DNA of 48,952 bases from a virus. The notes beneath the pieces are model-generated. The model was not told where the DNA came from, ran no database searches, and was given only the letters and a program-made list of their open reading frames with translations. Where the stretch lies: the IMG/VR virus record IMGVR_UViG_3300012210_000002, positions 1-48,952 of that record. One strand, 5' to 3'. The position numbers and the translations under genes were made by a program. Positions 1 to 36,064 of the stretch are shown piece after piece; the stretch's first letter is position 1, and each line of letters opens with the position of its first letter.

Positions 1-123
1 ATGCTACCGCCGCAGACATTCTACGTGTAAACTGTGCTTTTTGTTTTGCCAAGAAGTCTTCGACCTTTTCTTTGTTTACTGTGTCGAACTTCCAAATCTG
101 TGGCCCATAGCTTAGAACATCAA
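1..123. repeat. Left copy of 123-bp terminal direct repeat
   Basis: Bases 1-123 are identical to 48830-48952. The reading frame of the terminase large subunit continues correctly through the join and stops at a TAG made of base 1 and bases 48829-48828, so the two ends are one sequence seen twice. The likely explanation is assembler overlap on a circular or circularly permuted phage genome of 48,829 bp. A true 123-bp physical terminal repeat is possible but cannot be told apart here. Confidence 0.95.
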
Positions 124-9712: not shown

Positions 9713-10360
9713 GTGTACGTTTACTACGAGCACCACCGCGATGCGTCAAACAAGATTGTCCTCACAGAGCTACGCTTAAGCTCTCGCAAGGATGGAGTGC
9801 TAGAGATAGTATTCTATCATCCTACAGAGAAAATGGTCTTCGAGGCAATAAAGCCTTTGTTAAAATGGCCACCACTGAGCAACTACAGCTATGAGCCTTC
9901 TCTTAAACTCTGGAGCTACTTCGGACAATACGGCATTGCCGGCACCTATGGTGAGGAAGTTATCAAAAAGATTCAAACTGTAGTTGAAGCTCTCCAAAGT
10001 AATTTCAAAGCCTTCTCTGTAGAAGACCTAGCAGGACAAGCCGTCAATAACAAAGTAGACATGTCTGGTCGTAGCCGCAAGCCTAAGATGAGTGCAGAAG
10101 AGTTCTTCTACAATCATGGAGTGCCGTCGGCTACGCCGACAATGAGTAAAGAACAACTTGAGACTAAGCTCGTAAGTATTCTGAATGTGGATATCTCATA
10201 CTTTGGTTCTTTGTTTTCAAATCAAGACAGAAAGAAAGCTTATCGCTCTGCTGCTTTAAAGCTTCATCCAGACCGTAACAACGGTGATGATAAGGCTATG
10301 ACAGAGTTGAACTTTCTGTGGCAAGAGTATCAGAAATTGACAAAGGAGACTGTAGCATGA
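9713..10360 (+). CDS. J-domain (DnaJ-like) co-chaperone protein
   Basis: 215 aa from a GTG with AGGAAA eight bases upstream. The C-terminal 70 residues have the J-domain signature: a helix with KKAYRSAALKLHPDRNNGDD, including the HPD tripeptide at 185-187, then a helix III-like FLWQEYQK. J-domains stimulate ATP hydrolysis by DnaK/Hsp70. There is no G/F region, zinc finger or substrate domain as in full DnaJ. The N-terminal 130 residues are an unrecognised domain that probably supplies target specificity. The stop overlaps the vWA start as ATGA. Confidence 0.8.
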   Translation: MYVYYEHHRDASNKIVLTELRLSSRKDGVLEIVFYHPTEKMVFEAIKPLLKWPPLSNYSYEPSLKLWSYFGQYGIAGTYGEEVIKKIQTVVEALQSNFKAFSVEDLAGQAVNNKVDMSGRSRKPKMSAEEFFYNHGVPSATPTMSKEQLETKLVSILNVDISYFGSLFSNQDRKKAYRSAALKLHPDRNNGDDKAMTELNFLWQEYQKLTKETVA

Positions 10361-11459: not shown

Positions 11460-11598
11460 GAAATGTCCTACCTGCGGTGGAAAACTTAAAACCCACACTA
11501 AATGGCTAAGTGACGTTCATCTAGAGATGGCTAAGAACTACAAAAAAGCTCTAGCTCACTTAGCTAAGATCAGGAGGCTTCAAAGTGCTCCCAAGTGA
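11449..11598 (+). CDS. 49-aa basic protein with CPTC motif
   Basis: Probable GTG start at 11449 with GGTGGAG upstream, overlapping the previous gene by 11 bases; an ATG at 11416 has no ribosome site. The product has one CPTCGGK knuckle and a Lys/Arg/His-rich helix. With only one Cys pair it would need a partner or a dimer to bind zinc. Its end overlaps the FtsK start by 14 bases and contains that gene's ribosome site. Confidence 0.55.
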   Translation: MESKKCPTCGGKLKTHTKWLSDVHLEMAKNYKKALAHLAKIRRLQSAPK

Positions 11599-12802: not shown

Positions 12803-13211
12803 TGAAGTTATAATTAAGAAACTTTTAGATATAAAACTTGTAACTGACAACGGCTGCTGGATTTTAGCAAGATCAAGAAACGGTGACTATGCAACAATAG
12901 GATTTAACGGAGAAACTTGGTCTATTCATAGATTAAGTCTTTTTCTGTTCAAACCAGAAGAATATAGAGAAGGTCTTGATGTGTTACATTCATGCGATAC
13001 TCCAGCGTGTTTTAATCCAGATCATCTTTCATCAGGTACAAAGTCAAAAAATCAATTTGATTCTGTTGAGCATGGTAGACATGCAAATCACAGAAAAACT
13101 AGCTGCCCTAAAGGACATGAGTATTCTGAAGAGAATACTTATTTAAACCCAAGTGGCAGACGTCAATGTAAAATTTGTAACAACCAAAGGAGGATGTACC
13201 AAAATGCCTAA
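12780..13211 (+). CDS. HNH homing endonuclease (copy 1)
   Basis: 143 aa, overlapping the FtsK gene by 23 bases with AAGGAGG upstream. The N-terminal part has CWILARSRNGDYATI and IHRLSLFLFKPEEY; the HNH core is LHSCDTPACFNPDHL; a zinc-binding tail has SCPKGHEY and CKIC. It is clearly paralogous to the gene at 22197. The gene is visibly more AT-rich than its neighbours, as expected for a mobile free-standing homing endonuclease. Confidence 0.88.
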   Translation: MGYKKKSNEVIIKKLLDIKLVTDNGCWILARSRNGDYATIGFNGETWSIHRLSLFLFKPEEYREGLDVLHSCDTPACFNPDHLSSGTKSKNQFDSVEHGRHANHRKTSCPKGHEYSEENTYLNPSGRRQCKICNNQRRMYQNA

Positions 13212-19225: not shown

Positions 19226-19401
19226 GATGGACGTATGCACAGGTATCATTATCAGGCTACCTTAATGGTAGCCACGAAGAACTAAAACAAAAATTTTGTG
19301 AAGCTATGAATATAGCCTGCACATACTTAGAAGCTGAGCTCAAACACAAAAGTATTAATTATAATTTTACACAGTTTAAAACTGATGATGAGGAAAGCTA
19401 A
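19222..19401 (+). CDS. 59-aa hypothetical protein
   Basis: ATGA overlap upstream and TAATG overlap downstream. The product begins MRWTYAQVSLSGYLNGSHEE, is polar and helical, and ends DDEES. The tight coupling on both sides supports it as a gene. Function unknown. Confidence 0.58.
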   Translation: MRWTYAQVSLSGYLNGSHEELKQKFCEAMNIACTYLEAELKHKSINYNFTQFKTDDEES

Positions 19402-20498
19402 TGCCCTATATTAAGCCAAAAGGCAGCCCAAACGCTAGGATCTGGTGTATTTTCAATCACCCATTCTCTAGCGATACAGAGAAAGGTTCTCTCTTGTCAG
19501 GAGGCCTCGGATTTGTCTACGAGAAAATGTTCAAAGAAGCTGGCCTCGACATGAATTCCGTCTACTTCACAAGCCGCGCGCCGGATACTGATGTGAAGGA
19601 TGGGTTTGTAAATCTTGACGCAGACCTAAATCACTACAAACCACCAATCATCCTCGTAGCTGAAGACATCGCCGGTTGGTTCTTACCAGAGCTTCGAGAA
19701 AAGAATGGAATCTCTACAAGTCCAGGCCAAATGGCTAAGTATGCGGGGAGTCTTTTAAGCACAGATAAGCTGAGCTATCCACACTACATGATGCCAGTGT
19801 ACAGCCCGATGAGAGCTGTCCAAGATTGGCAAGAGAGAAACATCACAACCTACGTAGACTTCCAAAAAGCGCGGGATGAGTTTGAGTATTGGAAGCGCCA
19901 CGGCACATTACAGCCATTGCCAACGCGAGTATTGAAATTTCACGATATGGATATGGATGAACTTATAACTTATCTGGATCGCTTTAGCAATGCTAAGATT
20001 CTATCCGATGATATTGAAAATCCAGTATACAGTAGTAAACAGTACGCTCCTCACCCTGGATACGCATTTTTACTTGGTTTATCGGATTCGCCAGATTTTG
20101 GTATAAGTTTCAAGTTGTTCAGAGAAAAACCAATTGAGAATCGCGAACTCTGGAGACGATTGGATAAATTGCTGTATGAAGTTCCTATTCTAATCGGGCA
20201 GAATATCTTTAACTATGACGCGCTTCATCATAATGCCATAGGCTTCCGCGTGAGGTTAGAGAGATTACAAGATACGCTGATTCGTCATCATATCTTATGG
20301 CCAGAGTTGAGTCATAAGCTACAGTTTCTAACTCGCCAATACACGAGAGAGCCGTTTTATAAAGATGAGGGCAGCCATTGGACTATGAAGAGTTTGGATA
20401 GGTATAGACGGTACAACGCCCTCGACGCAGCAGTCACAATGGAAGTGTACTTGGGACAGGAACAGGAATTCAAACAAAAACCGCACTTAGCAGCGTGA
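19401..20498 (+). CDS. UDG-like domain fused to a DnaQ/PolA-type 3'-5' exonuclease
   Basis: 365 aa. Residues 1-100 follow the uracil-DNA glycosylase fold pattern (IFNHPF, SGGLGFVYEKMFKEAG, SVYFTSRAP), but the catalytic GExPG motif is not preserved. Residues 190-355 are a proofreading exonuclease: Exo I-like DDIEN, Exo II NIFNYDALHHN, Exo III YNALDAAV. SPO1-type phage polymerases have the same UDG-like N-terminus, but attached to the polymerase. Here the polymerase domain is a separate gene 0.2 kb downstream, so the two probably assemble. Confidence 0.75.
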   Translation: MPYIKPKGSPNARIWCIFNHPFSSDTEKGSLLSGGLGFVYEKMFKEAGLDMNSVYFTSRAPDTDVKDGFVNLDADLNHYKPPIILVAEDIAGWFLPELREKNGISTSPGQMAKYAGSLLSTDKLSYPHYMMPVYSPMRAVQDWQERNITTYVDFQKARDEFEYWKRHGTLQPLPTRVLKFHDMDMDELITYLDRFSNAKILSDDIENPVYSSKQYAPHPGYAFLLGLSDSPDFGISFKLFREKPIENRELWRRLDKLLYEVPILIGQNIFNYDALHHNAIGFRVRLERLQDTLIRHHILWPELSHKLQFLTRQYTREPFYKDEGSHWTMKSLDRYRRYNALDAAVTMEVYLGQEQEFKQKPHLAA

Positions 20499-20510
20499 AG
20501 GAGACTATGG

Positions 20511-20702
20511 ATGTACAAGACTTGCCAACTCTTAGTATGGCTGGAAACACCACCAGGCTCTCCAAAAGCTAACACCTACTGCCAAAGACCAGCAGGGCAT
20601 GAGGGAAAGTGTTCTCCAGAGAAACTACTTGGGGATCATACGCCAGAAGAGCAAAAGGAAATCTTAGCTAGGACTCATGTTAGTTGGGGAACGAATGGCT
20701 GA
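20511..20702 (+). CDS. Small zinc-knuckle protein
   Basis: 63 aa between exonuclease and polymerase genes. Cys5 and YCQRPAGHEGKCSP form the common phage pattern C...C-x5-H-x3-C, likely one zinc ion. Its end overlaps the polymerase start by eight bases. It might be a polymerase accessory, given its position only. Confidence 0.65.
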   Translation: MYKTCQLLVWLETPPGSPKANTYCQRPAGHEGKCSPEKLLGDHTPEEQKEILARTHVSWGTNG

Positions 20703-22200
20703 TAGAATAACAAACGCTTATGAGCACCAACTCCAAGCCGCGTACTACCACATAGGAAACCGCGGGATTTGCGTCAATACGGATCGCATTGCGGAAGCAC
20801 AAGCGATAGTCTCAGCGGAAATACACAGACATCTAGCAATCGCCTCTCAGCAATGGTCATGCAAAGTATTTATCGGAGCTGAGAATAATCCTCCAGAAGA
20901 CCGTATCAAAGGCTCAGACTTCTCCGGCGCGGTGAATCTCAATGCTACGCAGGGAAAGTATCGTCTCCTAGACAAACTCAAAGCTCTTGGCTACACCGTT
21001 CCAAAAGTCTCCGCGAAGAACGATGATGGAGAGTGGGAGTCTAAGGAAAGCACTAACGAGCTTGTACTCCGTAAGATTCTCCAAACAAACCAATTCGGCT
21101 ACCCCGGCGGTGATCCTGCCGTCAAAGCTATCCTCAAAGTCAGAGAATACAGCAAACTAAAGGAGAGTTATCTCGATGCATTACTTTTTAAGCGAGATGG
21201 ATTGTGGCTGTGGCTCTCTAACTATAACGTGGCGGGAACCACAAGTGGACGGCGGAGTTGTCGTAAGCACACGTTTGGTTATGGAGGAAATTCTCAAACA
21301 TTTCCTAAACACTCCGATATCGCTCATATTGCCAGACGGTGCTACACTGCGAGGCCAGGTAACGTTTTACTTATGGTCGATCAAATCTCCGCCGAAGACT
21401 GGCCAGTCTCAGCCTTGAGTGAGAATCACAAAGCTCTCGCGGAGTTGAGAGCAGGAGTAGATCGACATACTAAGCTAGCTTCAGAACTTTTCAACTTACC
21501 TATAGCTTCAAAAACTCCGAAAGAATGGAAAGAGTCTATGGAGAGGTACCTCGGGAAGAAGACTAGACACGCTACCAACTACGATGAACGCGCTGGCATG
21601 ATGTCAGAGTCTCTCATCAAAGAAGGCTTCTTCTACCCAGTGCCACAGTGTCAAGTTCTACTTGATAGAATGGGCGTTCTTGATCCTAATGTGAAGGGAA
21701 TCTTTCATAAATGGGTCAAGGAACAAATCTCAAAAAAACACATGCTCACAACTCCATTTGGGAGAGAAAGGCAGTTCCTCAGTGCTAGACCCAATGATGA
21801 GAATAGCTCCGTTTTTAAGGAAGCTTACGCTTACATTCCCCAATCAGTCATCGGTGACAATACAGGCTTTACCGTCCTTAAGCTGGAGAGCAATTATCCA
21901 ATTCAAGAACGAAGCATCGTTCAAGAAGGACATGATTCTATTGTGCAAGACGTTAGAGCCGATGTTGAAACGGTGTACAAATATCTACTTAGAACAGCAG
22001 GGGCTTTTGTACGAAGTATTTCCTTCCACAACGGAATCTCGGTTGAAATCCCAATTGAAGGCGAGCTTGGATTTGATCTCAACACAACCGTTAAAATCAA
22101 AGAATTCTCCCTCGTCGGTGTTAAAGAAGCGCTCGACCGTCTCAAAGAAGAAGTCCATCAGCAAGAAGTAGCCTCTGGAAAAGTAATGGAGATAGCATGA
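20695..22200 (+). CDS. Family A DNA polymerase, polymerase domain only
   Basis: 501 aa from the ATG at 20695. Motif A is LLMVDQISAEDWPV with the catalytic Asp. The O-helix (motif B) reads KKTRHATNYDERAG, with Tyr at the position of Phe762 of E. coli Pol I and His where Lys758 would align. Motif C is EGHDSIVQDV, with HDS instead of HDE. There is no exonuclease domain; proofreading is probably supplied by the 19401 gene. It replicates the phage genome. Confidence 0.9.
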   Translation: MADRITNAYEHQLQAAYYHIGNRGICVNTDRIAEAQAIVSAEIHRHLAIASQQWSCKVFIGAENNPPEDRIKGSDFSGAVNLNATQGKYRLLDKLKALGYTVPKVSAKNDDGEWESKESTNELVLRKILQTNQFGYPGGDPAVKAILKVREYSKLKESYLDALLFKRDGLWLWLSNYNVAGTTSGRRSCRKHTFGYGGNSQTFPKHSDIAHIARRCYTARPGNVLLMVDQISAEDWPVSALSENHKALAELRAGVDRHTKLASELFNLPIASKTPKEWKESMERYLGKKTRHATNYDERAGMMSESLIKEGFFYPVPQCQVLLDRMGVLDPNVKGIFHKWVKEQISKKHMLTTPFGRERQFLSARPNDENSSVFKEAYAYIPQSVIGDNTGFTVLKLESNYPIQERSIVQEGHDSIVQDVRADVETVYKYLLRTAGAFVRSISFHNGISVEIPIEGELGFDLNTTVKIKEFSLVGVKEALDRLKEEVHQQEVASGKVMEIA

Positions 22201-22685
22201 GTGATAAGCCAATGTTAAAAATCAAAACAAAACAAGAGATTGAACTGGCCAAGTTTGAAGAAATTAAATCAAGGTTGCTGAGTCGTCGTATTGTTTTAAC
22301 TGATGGATGCTGGCTATTTACTGGAACAATAACAGATAGAGGTTACGGACAGATTTGGTTTAAGAATGAGCCTTGGTATACACATAGATTAAGCATGTTC
22401 TTATTTAAACCAGAAGAGTATAAAGAAAGTTTAATGGTGCTTCATACTTGTGATATTGAAAAGTGTTTTAATCCTGAACATTTATTTTCAGGCACAGGAT
22501 CGGATAACAAACAAGATGAAATTGCAAAAGGTAGGAACTGGCATAGCAGACAAACTCATTGTCCTCATGGACATGAATTTACACCTGAGAATACTCGTGT
22601 AAGAACAAAAGGAAGAAACTCCAGAGAGTGTATCATTTGTATCAAGAAGAGAGCCAATTTTAACTATTTAACGAAAGGTCTGTAG
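22197..22685 (+). CDS. HNH homing endonuclease (copy 2)
   Basis: 162 aa, coupled to the polymerase gene by an ATGA overlap. It shares with the 12780 gene the segments HRLSMFLFKPEEY, LHTCDIEKCFNPEHL and HCPHGHEF plus the CIIC tail. The gene is AT-rich relative to its neighbours. Free-standing HNH genes often sit beside polymerase or helicase genes and cut phages lacking the insertion. Confidence 0.88.
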   Translation: MSDKPMLKIKTKQEIELAKFEEIKSRLLSRRIVLTDGCWLFTGTITDRGYGQIWFKNEPWYTHRLSMFLFKPEEYKESLMVLHTCDIEKCFNPEHLFSGTGSDNKQDEIAKGRNWHSRQTHCPHGHEFTPENTRVRTKGRNSRECIICIKKRANFNYLTKGL

Positions 22686-22689
22686 CACA

Positions 22690-23961
22690 ATGGCTCGAAT
22701 CTTACGTAAGGCTTGGCATGACGTGTATTTCGACTGTGTCGAGCCGCACTGTGACATGCCCCACAACTTCATCACTTGGAGTGCTTTGTCACTACTCGGT
22801 GCTGCATTGAAGAATAGTGTTTTCTTCGACATTGGTACTTACACGTTGTATCCTAATATGTTTGTCGTTCTCGTAGCACCACCAGGGATTGGTAAAGGTA
22901 CAGCGATGAACATCATTGAAGATATGAACAATACGAACAAACTCAACAAAGTTGTCAACACTCTTTCTGATCGTATCACAACAGAAAAGATTATCGAATC
23001 CATAGCAAACGGTTGGGCTCAAGCACCGAAGCTTCAAGGAATGCAGTTAGTAATAGGCGCGATGGAGCATAGCTGTCTTATCTTCTCTACAGAGCTTCGC
23101 ACTCTACTAGGAGGCTCTAATTGGATGTTAGAGTTTCTTGAAGAAGCATGGAGCAAGACAAGCTTTGATTACCAGACCAAAAACAAGGGAAGCGCCTTCA
23201 TGGAGGATTCATGCTGCTCTTTGCTCGCCGCGTCTGTTCCAGATGTATTGAGAAATATAAAAAGAGAAACACAGATTATCATCACCGGTGGCTTTGCATC
23301 TAGGTGTCTTTTTGTCTACGCAGAAGAACCTAGTAAAGACCTCCCCTTTCCAGAGTCTTTGAAGAAAAACAAGAAGTCCAAAGCTCTGTGGGACAATTTA
23401 ATTCTCGATCTCAAAGAAATCTCCAACCTTCGCGGTGAGTTCAAGATGGCGCCGGATGCGAGAATCATTCTAGAAAAATATCTCACCGCAAACAAAACAC
23501 ACACTCAAAACGCAGACTCAGAAAGTGAGGCTAACTTCCGAGCGAGAGTAAAAAGCCATGTCATCAAGCTTGCTATTGCTTTCTCCGTATCTAAAGGAGA
23601 CAGCCTCACACTGGATAAGTTTGATGTGTCTAATGCGATAGCTGAAATTGACAAAGTCATCGGCAATGTCAAAAAACTCTTCCGAGGAGTGGGTGATTCG
23701 ACGGACGCACCAAACATCTCCCGTGTCCAAAGCTTCATCGAAAAGCACGGAGCGACTACAAAGAAAGAAATCTTCAGCACAACCTACCGCCACATGTCTT
23801 GGGAGGATTTGGATCGTATTCTTTGGATTCTTGAGAGCCTAGACTTCTGCTCTAGGGTTGAGAGAAACAAAATGTCTTTCTACACAATCACACCCAAAGG
23901 TGCGGCATCAAATAAAGCACAAGCTGTAGCACAAAGTAACGGAAAGGTTACGGTACCATGA
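22690..23961 (+). CDS. DUF3987-like replication ATPase
   Basis: 423 aa. The N-terminal FDCVEPHCDMPHNFITWSAL and Walker A APPGIGKGT (63-71), followed by a SLLAASVPDVL region, match the DUF3987/YfjI-type P-loop proteins found in phage replication modules and often paired with primases. The C-terminal 90 residues look like a winged helix (KKEIFSTTYRHMSWEDLDRI). It is the likely replicative helicase or helicase loader, since no DnaB-type gene is present. A primase domain is not visible. Confidence 0.75.
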   Translation: MARILRKAWHDVYFDCVEPHCDMPHNFITWSALSLLGAALKNSVFFDIGTYTLYPNMFVVLVAPPGIGKGTAMNIIEDMNNTNKLNKVVNTLSDRITTEKIIESIANGWAQAPKLQGMQLVIGAMEHSCLIFSTELRTLLGGSNWMLEFLEEAWSKTSFDYQTKNKGSAFMEDSCCSLLAASVPDVLRNIKRETQIIITGGFASRCLFVYAEEPSKDLPFPESLKKNKKSKALWDNLILDLKEISNLRGEFKMAPDARIILEKYLTANKTHTQNADSESEANFRARVKSHVIKLAIAFSVSKGDSLTLDKFDVSNAIAEIDKVIGNVKKLFRGVGDSTDAPNISRVQSFIEKHGATTKKEIFSTTYRHMSWEDLDRILWILESLDFCSRVERNKMSFYTITPKGAASNKAQAVAQSNGKVTVP

Positions 23962-24497
23962 CACAACAGAGTTTGGCAGAAGCGGCAGTGGAAGTAATGA
24001 ACAGAGTTGACGCGGAAAATCAAGCTAAGTCCGCGCAGGAGATAATGCTTGACGGCAGCAACAAAGTAAGCTTTCCCGGCTTTCCATACACGTTCGAGGC
24101 TATGCATGAGAAAATTCTCGTTTCTATAGATATTTTCAAATCAGGCTACGAGTGTAAAGAATGTAAAGGCAAAGGAAAGATCGAGACTAAAGTAGGAAGA
24201 GAAGCGGTGTTCGTAGCTTGTGCCGCCTGTCACGGACGTGGAGCTTTGATTGTACTGCCAGAAACATCAAAGAACCTTCCCACAACCGGCATAGTTGTTT
24301 CTATGGGAACAGTCGCTAAAGAAAAAGCCAGCTTCAAAGTAGGCGATCGTATCCTCTTCGGTGCCTATGCGGGAACGATGATTCCCACTAAGATTGGCCT
24401 GATGTTCAAATACATGGACTGGTACCTTGGAGTAGTAAAGATCGAGGGAGCATCAGACTTAAGTGCATTTGATTTCATTCTTCAAGCTGATGAATAA
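23958..24497 (+). CDS. GroES-like co-chaperonin with an inserted DnaJ-type zinc finger
   Basis: 179 aa, ATGA overlap with the ATPase gene. Residues 50-60 (HEKILVSIDIF) match the first GroES strand. Residues 111-179 match its core: GIVVSMG, KVGDRILFGAYAGT and a DWYLGVVKIEG strand. Between them, where GroES has its GroEL-binding mobile loop, are two DnaJ-type repeats: CKECKGKG (66-73) and CAACHGRG (88-95). This looks like a phage co-chaperonin whose mobile loop has been replaced or extended by a zinc-bound substrate-binding module. Confidence 0.78.
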   Translation: MTQQSLAEAAVEVMNRVDAENQAKSAQEIMLDGSNKVSFPGFPYTFEAMHEKILVSIDIFKSGYECKECKGKGKIETKVGREAVFVACAACHGRGALIVLPETSKNLPTTGIVVSMGTVAKEKASFKVGDRILFGAYAGTMIPTKIGLMFKYMDWYLGVVKIEGASDLSAFDFILQADE

Positions 24498-25550: not shown

Positions 25551-27713
25551 CTAGTTCACGATATGGTAGCTAATGCAAAGTGGATTTGTCGCGATCACAC
25601 CATTGAATGTGATTTGGAAACTCGTTGATACTGTACGAGCAGTCACTGCAATCCCGCCGACTAAAGTTGCCAATGTTGAATTACACGTGGTAGCGGCAAT
25701 GGTCACTGAATCATCTGTTTGAATGAAAATCTCGCTTGCCGCTGTGATTGCTGTCGTATTCACTGTCACAGTGGTTGAGCCTGCCGCGATTGTTACTGCA
25801 CCCGCTGCTGCGCTACCACAGACTGCCGGTGATGCTGCGTTTGCACAGTTAGTCGTCGTTGTAACTTTAGGTATTGTTACGGTTCCTGTCAGCGTAGGCC
25901 CTGCGGAGAGAACCACGGTGCCCCCAGTACCAGTTACCGTTCCCGCTATGATGTGACCTGACGCGTCAGTTCCTAGCGCGGCGGTGCTGATGATGGCGGT
26001 TGAGTTCGGCATTAAAGCGGGCGTACCAGCAAAATCGGGCCATGTGACATGACGCGATACTGTGGCTGCTGTGTCTTGATACGTGTAGGCGGTATTCGAA
26101 TTAAGCAGGTAAATCGATGCTGCACCGAACGCAGCAGCATTGCCGGAAAAAGGACATACGGACGATATCAGGGATGTGACTAGGCAGAAGTTAGTTCCAG
26201 TGAACCGCGTGACAATTGAAGTTGTGTCGAAAACCGATGCCCCATTGTTGAGCCAGATAATTCCCGATTGAGAATTGAGGTTATTGTAGCCCCAACCGTA
26301 ACTAGCCGAGATATTGCTGGGAACAGGACGTGATGTAGCGTGTCCTTTCGATGCTGCGGCACCGCCAAAGGTAGTGTTGATCAGGTTGGCGATCAAATAT
26401 TGTGCAGTCGCGCTCTGGTGGATATTATCTCCATTCATGAGCGTTGGGTCCGCTGGATCAATGTCCAGCGAGTCGAGGTCAATCAATTGTGACCACGGCG
26501 TTGAGCCCGAAAGAGACGTTCCCTTGAGCAGTGCATTGAATTGTTGCTCGGATGCGGAATAAGCGGCTATCTGAGGCGCAATTCCGGCCATGTCCGTCAT
26601 GGCGACAGGCGTGCATCCATCCGTTTTAGCTTGAGTCATGTAGGACGTATAGGCACTAACTAAAGCTGACGCGGAAGTGCCTTGAAAGCGGATGTCGTTG
26701 TACCCTGTCCACAGAAAAAGTAGCACAGGGTTAGTGACTGTCGATGTTTGACACCACTGCTGCATCGTTTTCCCGGTCGCAACGTGGACCGGAGATGTTA
26801 CAGAAGTATATTGCGTGACGTAATTCGCCATGTACTCACCACTAACAGCGTCGTCATAGATGGAAGTTCCGGCACGCGTTCCGATCAGATTAGTGCTGCC
26901 AAGGACGCCTGTAGAACACCACGATACTGATGCTCCACCGATAGCCGTTCCGGCTGTGCGTGAATCTCCCTCGCACAGAACGGTCAAGGTTGCCGGGAGC
27001 ATGGCTGAGACAGCAAGTGACGAAGAACCGATTGTGACATTACCGTTGGCGCAGACGCTTCCGGCCGGCGCGCTCGCAGGGCAGGCCGTGCCAGACGCCA
27101 CGTTGCCGGCGCAGAAGACTCCGTTCGATCCATCTGGCGTACACCCCGGATATGGCGAGCCACTAGAGCATGCCGCCCAAGCACTACCAGAGTAACATCT
27201 CTGACCAGGAGTTGTGACATTATAGTAAGTTGCTCCAACTACTAACTGATTAGCAGCTTCTCCGTCGTTGTAACCATAAGTACCACTTCTGGCTATGAAT
27301 CTAGGCGCAGTTATAGAAGCTGTAAGCGCGGCGCTGATATTTTGCGAAGCTCCAGCGGTAGAGAACTGGTAAGCGGAGCACGGTGCTGAAGTGTTAGAAC
27401 ACACTGAAAGTGTCCACCCACTCCCGAATGGAGTCACGACAGAGGAGTCATACACAGTAACAGCCAAGACTCCAGATCCGTTTAAAGTTCCATTCTGAGA
27501 ATAAACCGCCGGATCAAGCGAGGCACCGTTAATCTTATACTGTGAAGGACTAAAAAACCCAGGCCCAGGCTTGAAGTTGATACTCCAAGTACCATTAGCC
27601 CATGTTGTACCATCTGAGTCTACGACGGTAGCTGAGAGAGCTGTTGTTTGAGCAGAACTAATCCCTAATAAGACAACTGACAAAAAGCAAAGAGCCAAAA
27701 GTTTTTTCATCAA
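25551..27713 (-). CDS. Secreted appendage-like protein with SGNH/GDSL esterase domain
   Basis: 720 aa with AAAAGGAG upstream. Residues 1-21 are a classical Sec signal peptide (KK, hydrophobic core, SSA cleavage before Gln). Residues 22-180 are paralogous to the N-terminus of the next gene. An SGNH hydrolase follows: GDSR (Ser251), the Gly in SGEYM, GYND (Asn339) and DNIH (Asp429-His432). Such enzymes deacetylate or cleave surface glycans. The C-terminal part is a repetitive Thr/Ala-rich beta domain ending LCISYHIVN, like soil-phage tail fibres. A signal peptide is very unusual on a virion protein. Confidence 0.85.
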   Translation of the reverse strand: MMKKLLALCFLSVVLLGISSAQTTALSATVVDSDGTTWANGTWSINFKPGPGFFSPSQYKINGASLDPAVYSQNGTLNGSGVLAVTVYDSSVVTPFGSGWTLSVCSNTSAPCSAYQFSTAGASQNISAALTASITAPRFIARSGTYGYNDGEAANQLVVGATYYNVTTPGQRCYSGSAWAACSSGSPYPGCTPDGSNGVFCAGNVASGTACPASAPAGSVCANGNVTIGSSSLAVSAMLPATLTVLCEGDSRTAGTAIGGASVSWCSTGVLGSTNLIGTRAGTSIYDDAVSGEYMANYVTQYTSVTSPVHVATGKTMQQWCQTSTVTNPVLLFLWTGYNDIRFQGTSASALVSAYTSYMTQAKTDGCTPVAMTDMAGIAPQIAAYSASEQQFNALLKGTSLSGSTPWSQLIDLDSLDIDPADPTLMNGDNIHQSATAQYLIANLINTTFGGAAASKGHATSRPVPSNISASYGWGYNNLNSQSGIIWLNNGASVFDTTSIVTRFTGTNFCLVTSLISSVCPFSGNAAAFGAASIYLLNSNTAYTYQDTAATVSRHVTWPDFAGTPALMPNSTAIISTAALGTDASGHIIAGTVTGTGGTVVLSAGPTLTGTVTIPKVTTTTNCANAASPAVCGSAAAGAVTIAAGSTTVTVNTTAITAASEIFIQTDDSVTIAATTCNSTLATLVGGIAVTARTVSTSFQITFNGVIATNPLCISYHIVN

Positions 27714-27731: not shown

Positions 27732-29954
27732 TCAAAATGCCACTACAATGTAGTTGCCAGATGGAGGTGTTCCAGCGGTTGCATCGCCGCAGAATGCAAT
27801 AGCAACAGTATTCGTTGCAGACACTCTCGCCCATCCTATCCAAAGATGTACCCCAAGTGAGCTTGGCGGCGACACGCTTACCTGCTGTGTAGTCACCAAG
27901 CTCGTATAAGTAAAGGTCTGTTCCATGCAAGACGAAGCCGTAGCCGCTGCCGGAGTAAGTGAGTTGGAAATCTTGACAGGAGATGTGCCTATAGGCAAAT
28001 CCGCGGCTTGAATAGAACTATCCACATAGTTAGTACCATTACCACGCGGATAGTGTCCGGTTGGAGCCACACTATTGATCTGGTATCCATTGATAGAATT
28101 AATAGTCCTAAATGTAAATAATCCTGTATTAGTCCAAGTTGCCAGAGTTTGTGTCACTGGATTATCTACAATTTCTCCGCCATTGCCGTTGAATGGTTCA
28201 ATAGCCATTCGGTTTGGCAAACTATCCAAATAAATATTTGCGACTCCATTGTAAAGACCACCTGGAAAATGGAAACCTCCATTATTATCAAATCCTTCTA
28301 ATCCAAGCGGGGTAGTAGCTCCACCTCCCAAGCAAATATTTGAGGAAGTATATAACCCTTGTTGATAACTATAATAAAACGTAAGTCCGGTAACACTTGT
28401 ATTCAAAAAACATACAGCAGGAGTATTCCCTCCTGAACTATTGCCTTCAACAAAGGCTCCAGTTTCATTTACTAATTCTAAGTTATAAGGAACAGTGACA
28501 GAGGTAGTAAACCAATTACCTACAACTCTTACATTTATCGCATTATGACTAAGAATAATATCATGTGCAGCACTTCCCTCAAAGTAATTTGAAGTTACAC
28601 TAGTACCAACGGAACCTTCGATCTCTAAACCAATTCCTCCTGTTCCACTTGTGGCTTCAAAGTCGTTCCCAATGAATGTATCATTAAGGATTTGAAAACT
28701 ATCCCCAAGAAGGGAAGAATCAAGGAACGCCCCTCGTAGAATACTATTTCCGAAAATGTTTCCCCATGCATGTAATCCATTAGGAGTGTAACTTGAAGTT
28801 GTTCCAGCTTGGTTATACGCGCATGTAAATGGAGTAGAGGTCAAGCACTTCGTCCCCCATACATGCATTCCATAATAATTACCTAATAATTGATTATTAT
28901 ATATATTGACAAGGATAGAACCCTCAATTGCAATTCCAGCGCCTCCCAGACCACTACTGGTAGAGAATCCTTGAATGTTCATATCATGAACGGAGATACC
29001 ATTAGTTGGCAATAAATGGACGCCACCTTTACCTGAAGATGTACCATTAATAATTCCACCTTGAATTACCAAATGTGAAGCACTTGGAGAACCGCCTACT
29101 TCAACTGTATCAATAGAATAACCAGTTCCAGTATAGTTAATTATAGCTGCTGGATCTAAAATAAGATTAAATGTTCCTGGACTATTAAGTGGTATTATTG
29201 TAGATGTAGTAACACTATTATAAGTTCCCGCAGGTACGTAAACAGTGCATGACCATGAACATCCTGTACCAGCCGTATTGATCTTAGCATTAATATCTGA
29301 ACCAGTCTGAAGAGCAGCATTTACAATAGTATTCATAGTTGAAATATTTAATGCCCCTGTAACAGTGCCGCCAATAATAGGAACATAAATTCCAGCCCCT
29401 GTACTAGAACATCCCCAAGGTCCAGCTCCTCCTGGCCATACTCTTAGACAAGCAGTAGTGACATTAAAATAAGTAGCCCCAGGAACTAATTGAATAGAAG
29501 CTTCAGAATCATTATAACCATAGGTTCCAGCAACAGCCAAGAATCTCGGAGCTGTGACTAGTGAGCTAAGTACAGAACTCAAATTTAGGCTCGCTTGAAG
29601 TCCTGTATTAAAGTTATAAGTCATACACTTAGCAGTAGCATTAGGACAAACGGTAAGATTCCACGAACTTCCAGTTGGAGTTATGGCTCCATTCTGATAG
29701 GAACTAAAACTCAAGGTTCCCGCGCCATTCATAGTGCCACCTTGAATCAGCACACTCTGGCTAAGAGGAACTCCGTTGATGTTATAAAGACTAATCGTAG
29801 GCTGTGCTGGATTAGGTGCGAATGCAAGACTCCAGCTTCCGTTGTTCCACGTTTGTCCATCGGAGTCTGTAACGGTAGCAGTAACAGCCGTAGTTTGCGC
29901 AGCAGCAACAGAAACAAGGAACAAAAAACTACAAACCAGTAAAATCTTTCTCAT
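27732..29954 (-). CDS. Secreted appendage-like protein with parallel beta-helix
   Basis: 740 aa from the ATG at 29954 (GAGGAG upstream; a longer frame to 30020 lacks support). Residues 1-20 are a signal peptide (RK, LLVCSFLFLVSV, AAA before Gln). The next 160 residues match the SGNH protein (WNNGSWSLAF, GTYGYNDSEA). Residues about 220-560 have the repeating NGT/GN-Val/Ile-x-Asn pattern of a pectate-lyase-like parallel beta-helix, typical of polysaccharide-binding or -degrading tailspikes. C-terminal beta domain. Paralogue of the downstream gene. Confidence 0.82.
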   Translation of the reverse strand: MRKILLVCSFLFLVSVAAAQTTAVTATVTDSDGQTWNNGSWSLAFAPNPAQPTISLYNINGVPLSQSVLIQGGTMNGAGTLSFSSYQNGAITPTGSSWNLTVCPNATAKCMTYNFNTGLQASLNLSSVLSSLVTAPRFLAVAGTYGYNDSEASIQLVPGATYFNVTTACLRVWPGGAGPWGCSSTGAGIYVPIIGGTVTGALNISTMNTIVNAALQTGSDINAKINTAGTGCSWSCTVYVPAGTYNSVTTSTIIPLNSPGTFNLILDPAAIINYTGTGYSIDTVEVGGSPSASHLVIQGGIINGTSSGKGGVHLLPTNGISVHDMNIQGFSTSSGLGGAGIAIEGSILVNIYNNQLLGNYYGMHVWGTKCLTSTPFTCAYNQAGTTSSYTPNGLHAWGNIFGNSILRGAFLDSSLLGDSFQILNDTFIGNDFEATSGTGGIGLEIEGSVGTSVTSNYFEGSAAHDIILSHNAINVRVVGNWFTTSVTVPYNLELVNETGAFVEGNSSGGNTPAVCFLNTSVTGLTFYYSYQQGLYTSSNICLGGGATTPLGLEGFDNNGGFHFPGGLYNGVANIYLDSLPNRMAIEPFNGNGGEIVDNPVTQTLATWTNTGLFTFRTINSINGYQINSVAPTGHYPRGNGTNYVDSSIQAADLPIGTSPVKISNSLTPAAATASSCMEQTFTYTSLVTTQQVSVSPPSSLGVHLWIGWARVSATNTVAIAFCGDATAGTPPSGNYIVVAF

Positions 29955-29964
29955 CACACTCTCC

Positions 29965-31272
29965 TCAGAGCCAGCCATTGTCTTCAAGAAATTGATAACG
30001 CTTCGCGGTGGACTTAGCAATATCAGTACGATATTGCATGTTGGGGATTTGTATCTGCTCTACAAGTCTTTCACAGCGGCTTGAGGCTTCAGAGATTGAA
30101 TCTCCAATTCCAGTTGGAGCACAGATAAAGCCATAGTTGCCGCTTGTAATAAGGCTTTTCTTATCTTTGGAGAGCTTGGCATCGTACAGATATATACTCT
30201 TGAGTTGTTCAATGTCCTCTGGGTTGATGCCATCGATGGACACATCCTTTGCTTTGGGGATGCGAATCTCTGTGGGATAAGGAGGAATAGTCAAAGTCAC
30301 GCTCATGCCAAACGGAGCTTCCCATTTAATCACCGGCACCTCCATAGCAGCTATTCGCCGGAGTAATTCACCGTAACCGTGGCCATACATAGTAGCTATG
30401 GTGGCATCTGCTAAGTAACCAAATCGTGGCGTCCATTCTAGGCCATAGGCTGTGCCTGGAGTTAGTATAGTATTAAGATCAATCATCCCAGTGAAACCAA
30501 CACTTGCAAGCATGGGGATGCACTTCTTCAATCCATCGCGGTATAACTTGGATTCGTCGGAGATAGCAAAGACTAAGTTGCCACTGCATCCAGTGTTTGG
30601 CCCTTTGCTTTCATTCATGAATTTCTTTTCTTCAAGAGTGCAAGTTAGCATGTAGAAGTCAGTCCCATTAAAAAATCCCGCGACCGAAGCTTCTATTCCC
30701 TCTACAAACTCTTGAAGTATAAACGGAGCATTCTTAGAAAGCTGTGCAAGATGATCCAGATTCTTAACCATATCATCTGCATCCTTCGCTACATAAGTCG
30801 TAGCTACATCTTGCATGTCAGAGCCTATAGTATAAGGCTTATAAACATACCTTCTATCCTCATTCTTCACAAAAGCTTTTGCCTCACTAGTCCCAGTAAA
30901 CTGCCTATACGACGGTACTTTAATCCCACAAGACTCCATAGCTTGAATCCCGGCTTCTCTATCGTCCTCAAGCATATGCTCGAAGGAGCCATCCCCAAGT
31001 GTGGGAGAATCCATTCGTGAAGCATCTGCTTGTTTAGCTCTCCCGGTAAGGTCGAATAAACTGAGATCATAACCTTTATACGAGGGATATCCGAAGCCAT
31101 TTACAGTTCTCCTGTGATCTAGCGATAGCTTCTTGGGGGGTGGAATAAGCCCCCCAAGAACATCCTCGTAATCAGGTTTGGAAAGATAATAGTCAACTTC
31201 GTGACCTTCAGCGAGAAGACGTAGTACGAACCAAGCTCCCATTCCTGTGTAGGAGGACATAGCTATTTTCAC
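29965..31272 (-). CDS. ATP-grasp enzyme, PurD-like
   Basis: 435 aa. An N-terminal Rossmann-like start (KIAMSSYTGMGAWFVLRLL) precedes an ATP-grasp core: YVYKPYTIGS, FILQEFVEGIEASVAGFF, the PurD-type GPNTG motif and LEWTPRFGY in the metal-binding region. ATP-grasp ligases join a carboxylate to an amine through an acyl phosphate. In PurD this makes glycinamide ribonucleotide, but here the lid and C-terminal regions differ and the gene lies among tail genes, so the substrate may be something else, such as a surface glycan or peptide. Substrate not assigned. Confidence 0.82.
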   Translation of the reverse strand: MKIAMSSYTGMGAWFVLRLLAEGHEVDYYLSKPDYEDVLGGLIPPPKKLSLDHRRTVNGFGYPSYKGYDLSLFDLTGRAKQADASRMDSPTLGDGSFEHMLEDDREAGIQAMESCGIKVPSYRQFTGTSEAKAFVKNEDRRYVYKPYTIGSDMQDVATTYVAKDADDMVKNLDHLAQLSKNAPFILQEFVEGIEASVAGFFNGTDFYMLTCTLEEKKFMNESKGPNTGCSGNLVFAISDESKLYRDGLKKCIPMLASVGFTGMIDLNTILTPGTAYGLEWTPRFGYLADATIATMYGHGYGELLRRIAAMEVPVIKWEAPFGMSVTLTIPPYPTEIRIPKAKDVSIDGINPEDIEQLKSIYLYDAKLSKDKKSLITSGNYGFICAPTGIGDSISEASSRCERLVEQIQIPNMQYRTDIAKSTAKRYQFLEDNGWL

Positions 31273-31421: not shown

Positions 31422-33344
31422 TTATCTCCTTTTGATTCCTCTGACACGGAATCTGTTAGTTCGTTTAGGTTGAGCACTACCTTCTCCAGACTCGTCAATC
31501 TGTGTGGGGAAGATATGATGTGCAAGAGGAGAGCCTACTACTGGTACAGTTTGTTTTAAAACATCACGACCAAGAGGGTAAGCACTTTTTCCTTTACCTT
31601 CTTTACTGGCTGCACCGTAGATATCAACTAAGTCTGTGCCGATAGCGCCGACAAAGGGACCAGCTAGTGCAGCTTCGATTCTGTGGCCTTTGATAGCGTT
31701 CAAGTAATTAAAGTATGTTCCGGCGGCTCCGATGTGAGACATGAGGTTGATATAGTTTCCAAGCCATTCTGGAACACTCTTAGCAGAGTACAAATGACCG
31801 TACCCTTGCTTAACTGTTTCCTTCGCTTGCTGTGGAGAACCTGTTGTTAAAAGTTTCTCCGCGCCTCCTAATAATGGAGCCACATTAGGAAACAACACTG
31901 CCATAGTTCCAGCAAACTGTGCAAGTCCTTTGATGTCACCGGATTTGGCCATAATTAGAAGTTCGCGGCGCATGAAAGAAGCTTGAGAGTTTACGAAAGA
32001 ATGATACATAAACCCTGCGCGAGCAAAGACATTCTTGTTCTGCCATAGAGAGTTATCTACACCTTTGTTGAAAAACATTCTGTTGTTAGTGTAGTGGTAA
32101 ATACCTTTCTGAAGTTGTTCTTCATTAAGCTTACCTTTCTGCTTCAGTACATCCAAAGGATCAATCTCCATTTCCTTAAGCCTTGCTTCTGCTATCTTAC
32201 TGCCACTTTCTGCAAAGTTGTGTGCCCAGTAGATAGCTGAGTGAAACCCTACAGAGCCAGCTATGTTAAGCTGCTGCCGGCGAAACCATGTAAAACCAGG
32301 CTGATGGATTGTACGAGCAAGAATCTTTCCCATTGTAGGACTATGTGTCCACTCAGCTACTTTGCCAGTTTCTCCTAGAATATCTCTATAAGTCGCACGC
32401 CAGAGAGTAGAAGCTACAATAGAAGAAGCTTCTACAGTTTTCTCCATCTCATCACGCGACATGCGTAGAAGAGAAGCTCCCATTGCCGGAAGAGGAGAAG
32501 ATGCTGGAAGATTAAAGAATTGTCCCACATGCTTCAAAGAAAGAAACGGAAGCATCATAGTATCAAGAACTCTATGTGCTGTGCGCTCGGCTTCTGTTGG
32601 TTTTTCGTAGGTAGGATTCTCACGTAAGTAAGGAATCTGAGGTTCTTCAATAGAAGCGAGGACTTTGTTTGAGGCTTTGAATGCTTTGTTCATAGAATAC
32701 TTAGAATAGGAAGTATCTATGTTCTTAATTACTTTTGTATCTCTTACTTGGTTAGAGATTATGTCCGCCACACGTTGAGCGTGATTAACCATGCGCGGGT
32801 CTTCGCTAAGTCTCATCTCCGCTATAATTGGAGCGGCGTTCTCAAAGTTTGAACCATAAGAACCAGGTCCAGTGAGTGCTTTGAGCCGCGCTAAGCTTTC
32901 ATTCTTTACCATCATTTCCTGCTGTGTTAATCCAAGATTCCTAGAAACTCCAGCCTTGTCAACATCAGAAGCAAGTATTGAGTGAGTAACTGTCCGAATA
33001 GGATGCCCAGTAGCAACCGCGTGAGTATGATAATCTGCCATAGTAGCAGTCTTGATTGGCAGAGAATTTCTCGCGACATCATCATTTTGATGCCATTGTC
33101 TCAAAGCTGCAATCTTATCAGTCTCCTGTTTAAGAGCTTGGTCATGAAGAAGATTATACTGATTTTGCATTGTCTTAATAGCACGTCCACCTGGAGTAAG
33201 ATCAAGTTCCCACTCTTGATTTCCGGCCATGTTAAGTACGCCGCGACCGACAGAACTTTCTTCTAGCTTAGAAGTTAACTTCTGTGCTCCGCGCTCTACA
33301 GCTTCACCTAGTGGTTTTACTAAGACATCGCCCAGACTACTCAT
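31422..33344 (-). CDS. Internal virion (ejection) protein candidate
   Basis: 640 aa from the ATG at 33344 (AAAGGTGG upstream), overlapping the previous stop by one base. Mostly helical with several amphipathic/hydrophobic helices and a C-terminal region (FARAGFMYHSFVNSQASFMRR) that resembles the end of 'large polyvalent' phage proteins carried inside capsids. The position after the tail-tube genes matches T7-like core proteins that form the DNA ejection channel. No lytic motif seen. Confidence 0.68.
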   Translation of the reverse strand: MSSLGDVLVKPLGEAVERGAQKLTSKLEESSVGRGVLNMAGNQEWELDLTPGGRAIKTMQNQYNLLHDQALKQETDKIAALRQWHQNDDVARNSLPIKTATMADYHTHAVATGHPIRTVTHSILASDVDKAGVSRNLGLTQQEMMVKNESLARLKALTGPGSYGSNFENAAPIIAEMRLSEDPRMVNHAQRVADIISNQVRDTKVIKNIDTSYSKYSMNKAFKASNKVLASIEEPQIPYLRENPTYEKPTEAERTAHRVLDTMMLPFLSLKHVGQFFNLPASSPLPAMGASLLRMSRDEMEKTVEASSIVASTLWRATYRDILGETGKVAEWTHSPTMGKILARTIHQPGFTWFRRQQLNIAGSVGFHSAIYWAHNFAESGSKIAEARLKEMEIDPLDVLKQKGKLNEEQLQKGIYHYTNNRMFFNKGVDNSLWQNKNVFARAGFMYHSFVNSQASFMRRELLIMAKSGDIKGLAQFAGTMAVLFPNVAPLLGGAEKLLTTGSPQQAKETVKQGYGHLYSAKSVPEWLGNYINLMSHIGAAGTYFNYLNAIKGHRIEAALAGPFVGAIGTDLVDIYGAASKEGKGKSAYPLGRDVLKQTVPVVGSPLAHHIFPTQIDESGEGSAQPKRTNRFRVRGIKRR

Positions 33345-36064
33345 CAGAATGACCACCTTTCATGTGAGCCAGTCTTAGTTTGAAGATCAGCTATAATATC
33401 ATCATAGGCCGAGAGATGTTCTTGAGCTTGAGGGCGCGTTCTGAAGTCTGCTTTGGAAAACTCATCCATCCTAAGCTTAGAGAATGCCGCGTGTGTCTTG
33501 AGAGCTAGGGACAACGCTTTAGCATCGCCGGAGAACATATCTTTAAGATTCTTCTGTTCTTGAATACCTTTCTCCACAAGAAGTTGGCGTTGCCACTGAG
33601 TAGTCTTGAACATGTTTGCATTAGAACTTCTGAAAATGTTATACTCTTGTGGCCATCTGCCGGAACCTAGAAAGTTATCCATATGGTTATACATTGCCTT
33701 AGCGTAATACTCAAGCTGAGGCTCTGTAGGAGTGCGACCGTTCATGTAATTTTGAACTTTCATAGTATCAATAAGACGTTGTTCTAACTCCTCACCAAAC
33801 TCTTTAGGCATTTGGCTAGTATAATTATACATGAAAGCTAAGAAGTTTGGATTCTCTTTTCCCGCGAAGGGCTTGTCAATCATTGGAGTAATTAGATCAC
33901 GAGTGCTGCTATACTTTCCAACTCCTTCAAAGAAGACGTTAGCATCTCGTAGAGCATCAGGATAGAAGTGCTTAGCTAAGTCGTGCATGAAATCATGATC
34001 ATCCATGTCCTGAAAGAACTGCTTAAGAGTCTGACTGCGAGACTTAGCTATTTGCTGGTACTGCTTAAGTTGAACTGTGAAGTTTGGATTCACGCTATAT
34101 CGCGCTGAAGGTTCGCCAAATTTATTAACAGAACGTTCACTTCTAATTTGAAAACCAGGATTCTTCTTAATAGCCACCACAGCCGGAGTATCTTTACGCC
34201 TCTCTGCAATATTAGAAGCTTTTTCAACTTTTGTCTGAGCGACTTCTTTCTCGGCCATCTCCGCAGACTTCTGAAGGTCCGCCGCGTAAAGTTTCTCAGC
34301 GGCTTTTTGAATCTGTTCCGGCTTCACTATAGAAGAAGCCCCTGGACGTTTAGCAAGATCGGCTTGGACCTTCTGAACATAAAACTCAAGAGTTGCCGGC
34401 GAATGCTTGAGATTTTGTGTTGCTTTAACTTCCGCCTGCTCACCCATGCCATGAACACGAGTGTTCATTTCTGATCCAGCGTCTACGATAAGTTGAGCAA
34501 GCCTAGAAGATAAGAACTTCTCATTCTCACTTCCAGATTCGATCTCTGAAAGTTTCTTATCTCCCAACAATGATCTTACAAACTTCGCTGATGCTAAAAC
34601 TGGCGACCAGTAAGCAGGATCTCCAGTTTCAGGATCTAGATACCTAGCTTGAATAGCCTTGATTTCTTCTCTGCTATTTCCTTCCATCTGTTCTACGTGA
34701 TGAAGAGCGTCTACATAAATAGAACGTTGTGTAGCAATACCACCTACAAAAAGATTATTCGCTACTTCTGTCTTGTGATCGTCATAAGCTTCTACCGAAG
34801 TAGCTGGTCTTTTACCTTCTTGTGCAAGAACATAAGCATCTTGGCGACGCTTTAGATTTTCAAGTTCCTTGCTTCCACTTGGAAACATGTCTATAAGCTT
34901 CTTTATGCCTACTCCACCAACATCAAACAATCCATGAAAAGCTACAAAACCTACAGCCGATCTCCAAATCTCACCAGGATCGTCTTGCTTACGAACTGCT
35001 ACGCCATAGGCTGTACCTTTTGCCCCGGCCATAAGATAACCTGCTACACGCTTGCCGGTAGGAAAACTCAGCAGTTTTGTTGTCAATCCTGTTCCTTCTC
35101 CTAAAACTCCAGCCGCAGCTCCTCCTAACTCCATAGCAGCGAAGATAGGAGCTTGACCTACTGTCTCTCCTACAAAAGAAGTGGCTTTGTTAAGAACTCC
35201 ATCATGTCCTGGTAGTACGTCCGACCAGAACTGACGGTGATCTTGTTGGTACCGTGCTCCACGTTGAATAAGGTTTTCGTCATACTTTTTATCAGAGACA
35301 AGTTGAGAATCAATCTCTTTAAGCCGTTGATCCCACCTTTGGACAGCCACGTTATTTACATTACTCGCATCAGCAGCCCTATTTGCAAAGATACGTTCTT
35401 TTCTCCACTGAGCCACGGCGTCATTATAGGTATCTCCAAGCATTGTAGTAAGTTTATCCGCCACATGAGCAGTCGCGGCAAGTCCAGAGTCCCAGCCATG
35501 CTTAAGAGAATTTGTCCAGTTGTTTGTGTAGGCATCTTCAATCTTATAATCCAAAGCCTCATCATAAGCTTTCTTAAGCCACAAATCCTTACTCATAGGA
35601 TTCATCCCAAGATGCCCATAAGCAGGACCAATCATTTTATCATAAAAGTTTGAAGCAATTTGTTGCTGCTCTGTGAATGAGATATTAGGCGCAGCCTTAG
35701 CCTTAGCACCTACGGTTGTCCATAAATGAAGATTATGAGCCAGATGATCGTAACCATCTTCAATGAGATTAGGGTTAAGTTTTGTATCTTTAAGAGCGTC
35801 AATCTTTTTAGACTGCTCAAGAGAATGTATTGAATGATATTTATTCTCCGGCACTGGCTTTGGTGCATCTGGACCAAGCTTGATAAAGCTAGAACGATAA
35901 ACATCATTACTTGACGCGGCTGGCTTAGACTCTGTTCTCTGTTCTGTAATCAGCAAAGAAGATGGTACCGAGCCTCCTGGCCTTGCAGAAGCAAGTGGTT
36001 GTTCTCCAGGGTATTTATAACTCTTAGCCCATTCTTGAGGAGTTGCTAGCGGTTCTTGTGGCAT
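33344..36064 (-). CDS. Large internal virion / ejection protein candidate
   Basis: 906 aa, the largest protein. A polar Pro/Ser-rich start is followed by long helical stretches, one Gly/Ala-rich hydrophobic region (AAMELGGAAAGVLGEG... about 300-350) that could insert into a membrane, and helical repeats to the C-terminus. T7-like phages have three such large proteins in this position. No peptidoglycan-cleaving motif recognised. TAATG overlap with the upstream gene. Confidence 0.65.
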   Translation of the reverse strand: MPQEPLATPQEWAKSYKYPGEQPLASARPGGSVPSSLLITEQRTESKPAASSNDVYRSSFIKLGPDAPKPVPENKYHSIHSLEQSKKIDALKDTKLNPNLIEDGYDHLAHNLHLWTTVGAKAKAAPNISFTEQQQIASNFYDKMIGPAYGHLGMNPMSKDLWLKKAYDEALDYKIEDAYTNNWTNSLKHGWDSGLAATAHVADKLTTMLGDTYNDAVAQWRKERIFANRAADASNVNNVAVQRWDQRLKEIDSQLVSDKKYDENLIQRGARYQQDHRQFWSDVLPGHDGVLNKATSFVGETVGQAPIFAAMELGGAAAGVLGEGTGLTTKLLSFPTGKRVAGYLMAGAKGTAYGVAVRKQDDPGEIWRSAVGFVAFHGLFDVGGVGIKKLIDMFPSGSKELENLKRRQDAYVLAQEGKRPATSVEAYDDHKTEVANNLFVGGIATQRSIYVDALHHVEQMEGNSREEIKAIQARYLDPETGDPAYWSPVLASAKFVRSLLGDKKLSEIESGSENEKFLSSRLAQLIVDAGSEMNTRVHGMGEQAEVKATQNLKHSPATLEFYVQKVQADLAKRPGASSIVKPEQIQKAAEKLYAADLQKSAEMAEKEVAQTKVEKASNIAERRKDTPAVVAIKKNPGFQIRSERSVNKFGEPSARYSVNPNFTVQLKQYQQIAKSRSQTLKQFFQDMDDHDFMHDLAKHFYPDALRDANVFFEGVGKYSSTRDLITPMIDKPFAGKENPNFLAFMYNYTSQMPKEFGEELEQRLIDTMKVQNYMNGRTPTEPQLEYYAKAMYNHMDNFLGSGRWPQEYNIFRSSNANMFKTTQWQRQLLVEKGIQEQKNLKDMFSGDAKALSLALKTHAAFSKLRMDEFSKADFRTRPQAQEHLSAYDDIIADLQTKTGSHERWSF

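Follow-up and report, generated by a model that had tools for sequence, protein, structure and literature searches.

The window, a 48,952-base virus record at its full length, encodes a member of the GroES/Cpn10 family in which a DnaJ-like zinc finger takes the place of one part only of the mobile loop, its N-terminal arm. The protein, here called zf-GroES, is a co-chaperonin by family and not a DnaJ; it is the finger that is DnaJ-like. The architecture, recognized by the outer cysteine motifs together with the fold, was found in 51 distinct proteins of IMG/VR phages. An earlier note, made from the letters of the sequence, had described a GroES hybrid in this 179-residue reading frame, with repeats running C66-K-E-C69-K-G-K-G73 and C88-A-A-C91-H-G-R-G95, and the frame and both repeats are as it gave them. 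Positions of the features are collected in Table 1.

Table 1. Features of the zf-GroES locus and of the J-domain gene (window coordinates)
Feature	Position	Strand	Basis or remark
zf-GroES gene, 179 aa	23958..24497	+	Pfam Cpn10; family profile against PDB GroES; Foldseek; 51 homologues
Shine-Dalgarno-like GGAAAGG	23941..23947	+	10 nt 5' of the ATG, read from the sequence
DUF3987 primase/helicase-like gene	22690..23961	+	same neighbour of zf-GroES throughout the clade
Family-A DNA polymerase, polymerase part	20677..22200	+	marker of the phage clade
N-terminal extension, residues 1-44, not in GroES	23958..24089	+	helix 4-25 predicted, low confidence
First GroES strand, residues 50-58 (HEKILVSID)	24105..24131	+	counterpart of IRPIHDRVLILID in relative L136
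Predicted outer zinc motif a, CKECKGKG, residues 66-73	24153..24176	+	C66 and C69 invariant
Predicted outer zinc motif b, CAACHGRG, residues 88-95	24219..24242	+	C88, C91 and G93 invariant
Mobile-loop tripeptide IVL, residues 98-100, predicted GroEL contact	24249..24257	+	directly 3' of the finger
Mobile-loop C-terminal arm and GroES core, residues 101-165	24258..24452	+	profile, model, loop spacing; short roof loop Gly117-Gly129
J-domain protein, 215 aa, HPD at 185-187	9713..10360	+	PF00226 5e-7, 30.2 bits, above cut-off

The GroES assignment came from profiles and from models. Pfam Cpn10 (PF00166) matched residues 97-144 of the window protein at E=1.6e-8, with 34.9 bits against a curated cut-off of 21.1, and 22 of 23 relatives matched at E<=0.01. 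PHROGs classed the protein as co-chaperonin GroES (7.6e-6). When the family profile was compared with solved GroES chains in the PDB, E-values ran from 3.9e-11 to 6.5e-9; the alignment started exactly at the IVL/IVIP tripeptide and continued ungapped through the whole second arm of the loop. Single-chain structure prediction, one of the checks proposed by the earlier note, was done by AlphaFold with the family alignment; the window protein was modelled at pLDDT 72 and L034, a relative with four motifs, at 81.5. In a Foldseek search of the PDB with the window model, all 13 matches at E<=0.001 were GroES/Cpn10 chains, and T4 gp31 (1g31) was matched at E 0.018. The L034 model also retrieved GroES, with gp31 at rank 5, and so agreed with the window model in having the GroES beta-barrel. 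The alignment of the window model with GroES chains extended over about 125 columns, enough to include both the first strand, which precedes the finger, and the core that follows. In relative L136 the strand ahead of the finger, IRPIHDRVLILID, is very near the canonical GroES N-terminus. The GroES-like fold that had been read from the sequence is thus borne out, and there is indeed a GroES match within 111-179, the stretch first given as the core; the match begins, however, at residue 97 and takes in 98-110, the half of the loop that had been counted as replaced.

That half of the loop is what changes the interpretation. The tripeptide following the finger is wholly hydrophobic in 47 of the 51 zf-GroES proteins, and in the window protein it is IVL, as in E. 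coli GroES. From the residue after the tripeptide (Pro in the window protein) to the next conserved Gly the distance is 10, the GroES spacing, in 50 of the 51. The claim that the finger stands in place of the mobile loop, and full replacement of the loop generally, was therefore given up, since the tripeptide and the downstream arm are present. What the finger displaces is the connection from the first strand to the tripeptide, which in GroES is some ten residues long. In GroES, the IVL tripeptide contacts helices H and I of GroEL, and the L27A mutation abolishes GroEL binding (PMC3514286). Because the last CxxCxGxG motif is followed at once by the tripeptide and by a C-terminal arm spaced as in GroES, zf-GroES has probably kept GroEL binding, and the likely arrangement, judged from sequence, is that GroEL is recruited through the normal contact with the finger alongside.

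The roof is a second departure from bacterial GroES. From Gly117 to Gly129 the chain leaves no room for the roof beta-hairpin, this loop being about 6 residues shorter than its E. coli equivalent. A roof hairpin is not required of a co-chaperonin, since T4 gp31 also has no roof loops, along with a longer mobile loop and a larger chamber (PMC6318259). Four relatives (L024, L058, L062 and L066) have a long insertion at the roof position, so that loop and roof are both remodelled in them.

The finger itself was examined across the family. C66, C69, C88, C91, G93 and P101 were invariant in the 35 relatives aligned. The Pfam domain DnaJ_CXXCXGXG (PF00684) aligned with residues 65-98 of the window protein at 9.7e-5, with 23 bits. 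Profile comparison, which the earlier note had suggested for both halves of the hybrid, thus came out unevenly, with Cpn10 above its curated cut-off and the DnaJ zinc domain below its own (32.7). In L034 the same domain is found at full length (1-65/65) at residues 40-100 and Cpn10 takes over from profile position 22 at residues 101-150; the Pfam reading of L136 is similar. These two readings and the invariant cysteines support the proposal of a DnaJ-like finger inserted at the mobile loop.

Over the 51 proteins, the span across the outer motifs varies from 24 to 95 residues and the number of motifs from 2 to 6. Most relatives have four or more CxxC-type motifs, and nine family members are minimal, with two motifs only; the window protein has two motifs and one site. 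The inner cysteines, which were counted by script and in four proteins by eye, number 0, 4, 5 or more per protein, never 1-3. The inner set is thus there as a whole or missing as a whole, and a tree from which the finger had been left out gave at least 6 changes of it. In DnaJ, motif 1 pairs with motif 4 and motif 2 with motif 3. Because the outer cysteines are invariant and the inner set is all-or-none, the data match a pair of nested zinc sites; the sequences predict an obligatory outer site and a modular inner site in the DnaJ layout. Zinc binding is what the invariance of the four outer cysteines suggests. PMC4428491, citing Linke 2003, reports that DnaJ cannot do without zinc centre I in binding substrate, or without zinc centre II in its interaction with DnaK. 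By its motifs the window protein has the outer, centre-I-like site only and is without the inner, centre-II-like one.

The likeness to DnaJ has its limits. zf-GroES shares with the DnaJ zinc domain the CxxCxGxG motifs, the nested pairing pattern and, in four-motif relatives, the full domain length; it differs in that the window finger scores under the curated cut-off and has the outer site only. A type I DnaJ has four CxxCxGxG motifs and two zinc centres, and the zf-GroES chain gave no match to the J-domain (PF00226) and lacks the DnaJ C-terminal domains as well. Profile and fold searches also matched the finger weakly to single-site DnaJ-like hairpins, namely those of anti-TRAP, BSD2 and UvrA; the UvrA zinc hairpin superposed over 35 residues at 1.1 A in Foldseek (E=0.3). 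We know of no hairpin of this type fused to a GroES fold. Given the sub-cut-off DnaJ score and the resemblance to such single hairpins as those of anti-TRAP and UvrA, the analogy with DnaJ argues weakly for client binding.

The family was gathered by IMG/VR scans with the window protein, with growing alignments and with the neighbouring DNA polymerase, and the candidates were then scored by profile. The search for homologues with the same insertion, which the earlier note had also called for, thereby yielded the 51 proteins. All 45 true relatives of the polymerase with at least 3 kb of sequence downstream encode zf-GroES, and the two polymerase matches without it are only 24-26% identical in the polymerase. 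The clade keeps its gene order: the split polymerase, the primase, zf-GroES, and then convergent tail genes. In the window the zf-GroES ATG (23958) falls within the last bases of the DUF3987 primase gene, which runs to 23961, the overlap being 4 bases. An assembly or frame artefact was ruled out, the gene being in the same place in 45 relatives. Against relatives dN was 0.22-0.37 with dS saturated, and zf-GroES is for that reason considered to be under purifying selection. Neither promoters nor terminators were found near the gene beyond what chance would give. The exact 123-base direct terminal repeat of the window (1-123 and 48830-48952) indicates a complete circular assembly. A relative contig, 3300018013_000015, has its ends joined by an overlap of the same length (123 bases), within its zf-GroES gene.

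A second, different phage lineage (L027, L034 and L041) has zf-GroES just ahead of the genes for the terminase large subunit and portal. Outside IMG/VR, two scans able to detect close relatives only found none in 84,980 bacterial and archaeal genomes, and a bacterial origin of the architecture, as far as close relatives can reveal one, was set aside on that result. Close-relative scans of plasmids (L041 as query) and of phage isolates (P0001, L041 and L045 as queries) likewise gave only plain GroES or unrelated matches, none bearing a finger. A match in a giant phage, L071, was rejected as a cysteine-repeat protein without GroES; this gene (909-2441 of L071, a 642-kb uncultured phage) encodes a protein ending in about ten DnaJ-like CxxCxGxG repeats. 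Each zf-GroES phage has one Cpn10 gene. No phage-encoded GroEL was found in 25 records, and no phage-encoded Hsp70 in 18.

The clade does carry a J-domain, on a separate protein from the finger, which is joined to GroES. The J-domain forms the C-terminal end of the 9713-10360 product, with YRSAALKLHPDRNNGDD, and its PF00226 match was 9.8e-9 when searched per genome. A J-domain protein was found in 28 of the 34 records tested, with the HPD intact in 28 of 28. Within the window's clade the count was 28 of 32, the four misses being incomplete records of 34-36 kb; both records tested from the second lineage were without it. The aligned J proteins have no DnaJ-type CxxCxGxG repeats. J-domain proteins are a known kind in phages, but here they are near-universal in genomes of about 48 kb. 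According to PMC3486835, gene 057w of a T4-related phage encodes a J-domain protein that acts on host DnaK; this protein resembles the 9713-10360 product, and no link is made there to a zinc-finger co-chaperonin. The 9713-10360 product is a putative Hsp70-side partner of zf-GroES, and the two may work together. The end of the J-domain gene is overlapped by 10318-11181 (+), whose product is von Willebrand A-like (PF25106, 20.1 bits, under the cut-off) and contains DDSGSMGS, a stretch that resembles a metal site.

Our preferred reading, to which we give a probability of about 0.5, is that zf-GroES works as a co-chaperonin with the host's GroEL and bears on its loop an extension that is clamped by zinc and probably contacts clients. 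The phage protein would cap GroEL supplied by the host and would grip it with the usual hydrophobic mobile-loop tripeptide, IVL, while the loop's other arm would be rebuilt as a zinc-clamped beta-hairpin of DnaJ type. Each subunit, of which there are presumably seven, would thereby hold out a small, stiff knob at the place where the lid meets the chamber. Most likely the knob would contact and position phage clients entering or trapped in the chamber, in the way of DnaJ zinc centre I; it would also lengthen and order the loop, which the longer loop of T4 gp31 does by other means. The phage J-domain protein may pass the same clients on from host Hsp70. The best-supported part of this proposal is the lid for host GroEL held by the ordinary contact; with that contact made, the finger would sit where lid and chamber meet, next to the place at which GroEL holds its clients. 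That finger length ranges between 24 and 95 residues speaks for a constant base bearing a surface for varied partners, and the nine minimal members indicate that the base alone can suffice. Two points sit awkwardly with the preferred reading: a purely geometric role of the finger as loop spacer fits poorly with that range of lengths, and zf-GroES is in the replication module of the window's clade, away from the head genes.

The main rival to client contact combined with loop ordering is that the hairpin is clamp and spacer only, stiffening and lengthening the loop, adjusting how tightly GroEL is bound and making the cage larger or more open for large phage proteins, with no contact to clients. 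The invariant outer clamp adjoins the tripeptide, and the nine two-motif members suggest that the clamp alone is needed; in gp31, further, a longer loop goes with the lack of a roof and a larger chamber (PMC6318259), and the roof of the window protein is short too. A fixed geometry would, however, badly tolerate a distal part of such varied length and motif number (2 to 6), and glycine-rich DnaJ-type motifs have been retained where a simple hairpin would serve. The predicted major capsid protein of the window (319 aa, 43034-43993) is, moreover, not oversized for a normal cage. We regard a clamp without client contact as possible, with the odds clearly against it.

A second alternative divides the work of DnaJ between two proteins: the J protein would bring clients to host DnaK and zf-GroES would receive them at GroEL, joining the Hsp70 and Hsp60 systems. 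The separate protein with an HPD makes such a two-protein link to Hsp70 possible. Its near-constant presence in the clade, where it was missed only in the 34-36 kb fragments, speaks for the division, as does the lack of DnaJ-type repeats in the aligned J proteins; among J-domain-bearing records of other, unrelated viruses, moreover, only 1 of 18 has a Cpn10. On the other side, 13.6 kb separates the two genes in the window, and the second lineage has the finger and, in two records tested, no J-domain. The centre-II-like site, reported as the DnaK-interacting one of DnaJ, is absent from the window protein and has been repeatedly lost or gained in the family, and a direct handshake of the window protein with DnaK is thus disfavoured. 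A dedicated relay of this kind is, in our judgement, doubtful.

That the GroES fold has been repurposed, giving a zinc-finger protein of replication or packaging that binds nucleic acid or a phage enzyme, is improbable. Gene position is what suggests it: zf-GroES overlaps the primase gene and follows the split DNA polymerase throughout the clade, and in the second lineage it comes just before the terminase large subunit and portal. Some phage zinc hairpins, those of Q-like antiterminators, also score weakly against the window protein. Such a protein would have no reason to keep the tripeptide and the exact loop spacing, which nearly all members do, and the GroES barrel is otherwise intact. Least probable is a redox switch in which zinc release on oxidation toggles capping, or an inhibitor that jams host GroEL. 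Four-cysteine zinc centres of the Hsp33 type can act as redox switches, and this precedent speaks for the idea, the analysis itself giving no pointer to it. Against it, the CxxCxGxG glycines are largely kept, as in a structural element, the cysteines of the inner site disappear all together, and there was no other sign of redox control.

Compared with known co-chaperonins, zf-GroES shares with bacterial and mitochondrial GroES/Cpn10 the beta-barrel, the first strand, the tripeptide, the spacing of the loop arm and the KVGD strand, and it differs from them in the finger of about 24-95 residues in the loop's N-terminal arm, in the N-terminal extension and in the short roof. With T4 gp31 and similar proteins it shares being phage-encoded, the GroES fold, a lengthened mobile loop and the lack of a roof (PMC6318259); the window protein has this combination as far as its sequence and model indicate. 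There is no close sequence relation to gp31, and the gene context is different. The gp31 loop is extended by just a few residues and is not known to contain a metal site; co-chaperonins of the gp31 type serve in folding the major capsid protein. The nearest isolate sequence, outside the family, is the plain GroES of the Bacteroides phage SJC03 (L069, P0002/P0003), whose profile alignment (5e-10) runs from the tripeptide onward. It has 87 aa and no insertion, and is encoded beside the phage's own GroEL, unlike the zf-GroES genes. No description of a zinc finger in any GroES was found in the literature searched, which included few subscription papers, and the claim that the architecture is absent from described phages agrees with this; on that literature, zf-GroES is a previously undescribed variant of phage GroES/gp31. 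Entries named 'uncultured virus' also include co-chaperonins of 139-158 aa.

GroES is among the most conserved parts of the chaperone machinery, and its mobile loop must touch GroEL. The presence of a finger inside that loop, with the tripeptide kept, in whole phage lineages suggests that the loop tolerates a folded domain. zf-GroES is thus a natural tool for asking if a co-chaperonin can select clients and, together with the J-domain protein, it offers a small system with separable parts in which the passage of clients from Hsp70 to Hsp60 can be tested. These phages may be changing the way in which two chaperone machines of the host deal with phage proteins.

Several other genes of the window deserve mention. 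The family-A DNA polymerase is split into exonuclease and polymerase genes (19401-20498 and 20677-22200, +), an arrangement kept in the clade. Two similar endonucleases of the HNH/His-Me homing type are encoded at 22197-22685 and 12780-13211 (+), the first between polymerase and primase. An FtsK/SpoIIIE-type ATPase (11585-12802, +; PF01580 4.9e-28) is present in this 48-kb phage. A tail protein is assigned to 33344-36064. Two paralogous fibre-like proteins (25551-27713 and 27732-30020, both -) have apparent Sec signal peptides (MKKLLALCFLSVVLLGISSAQTT...); L001, L002 and L003 have relatives of this pair, and Sec-like signal peptides are odd for phage tail proteins. Within the structural block, 29965-31272 (-) encodes a PurD-like ATP-grasp protein (PF01071, 2.8e-12) that is conserved in the clade.
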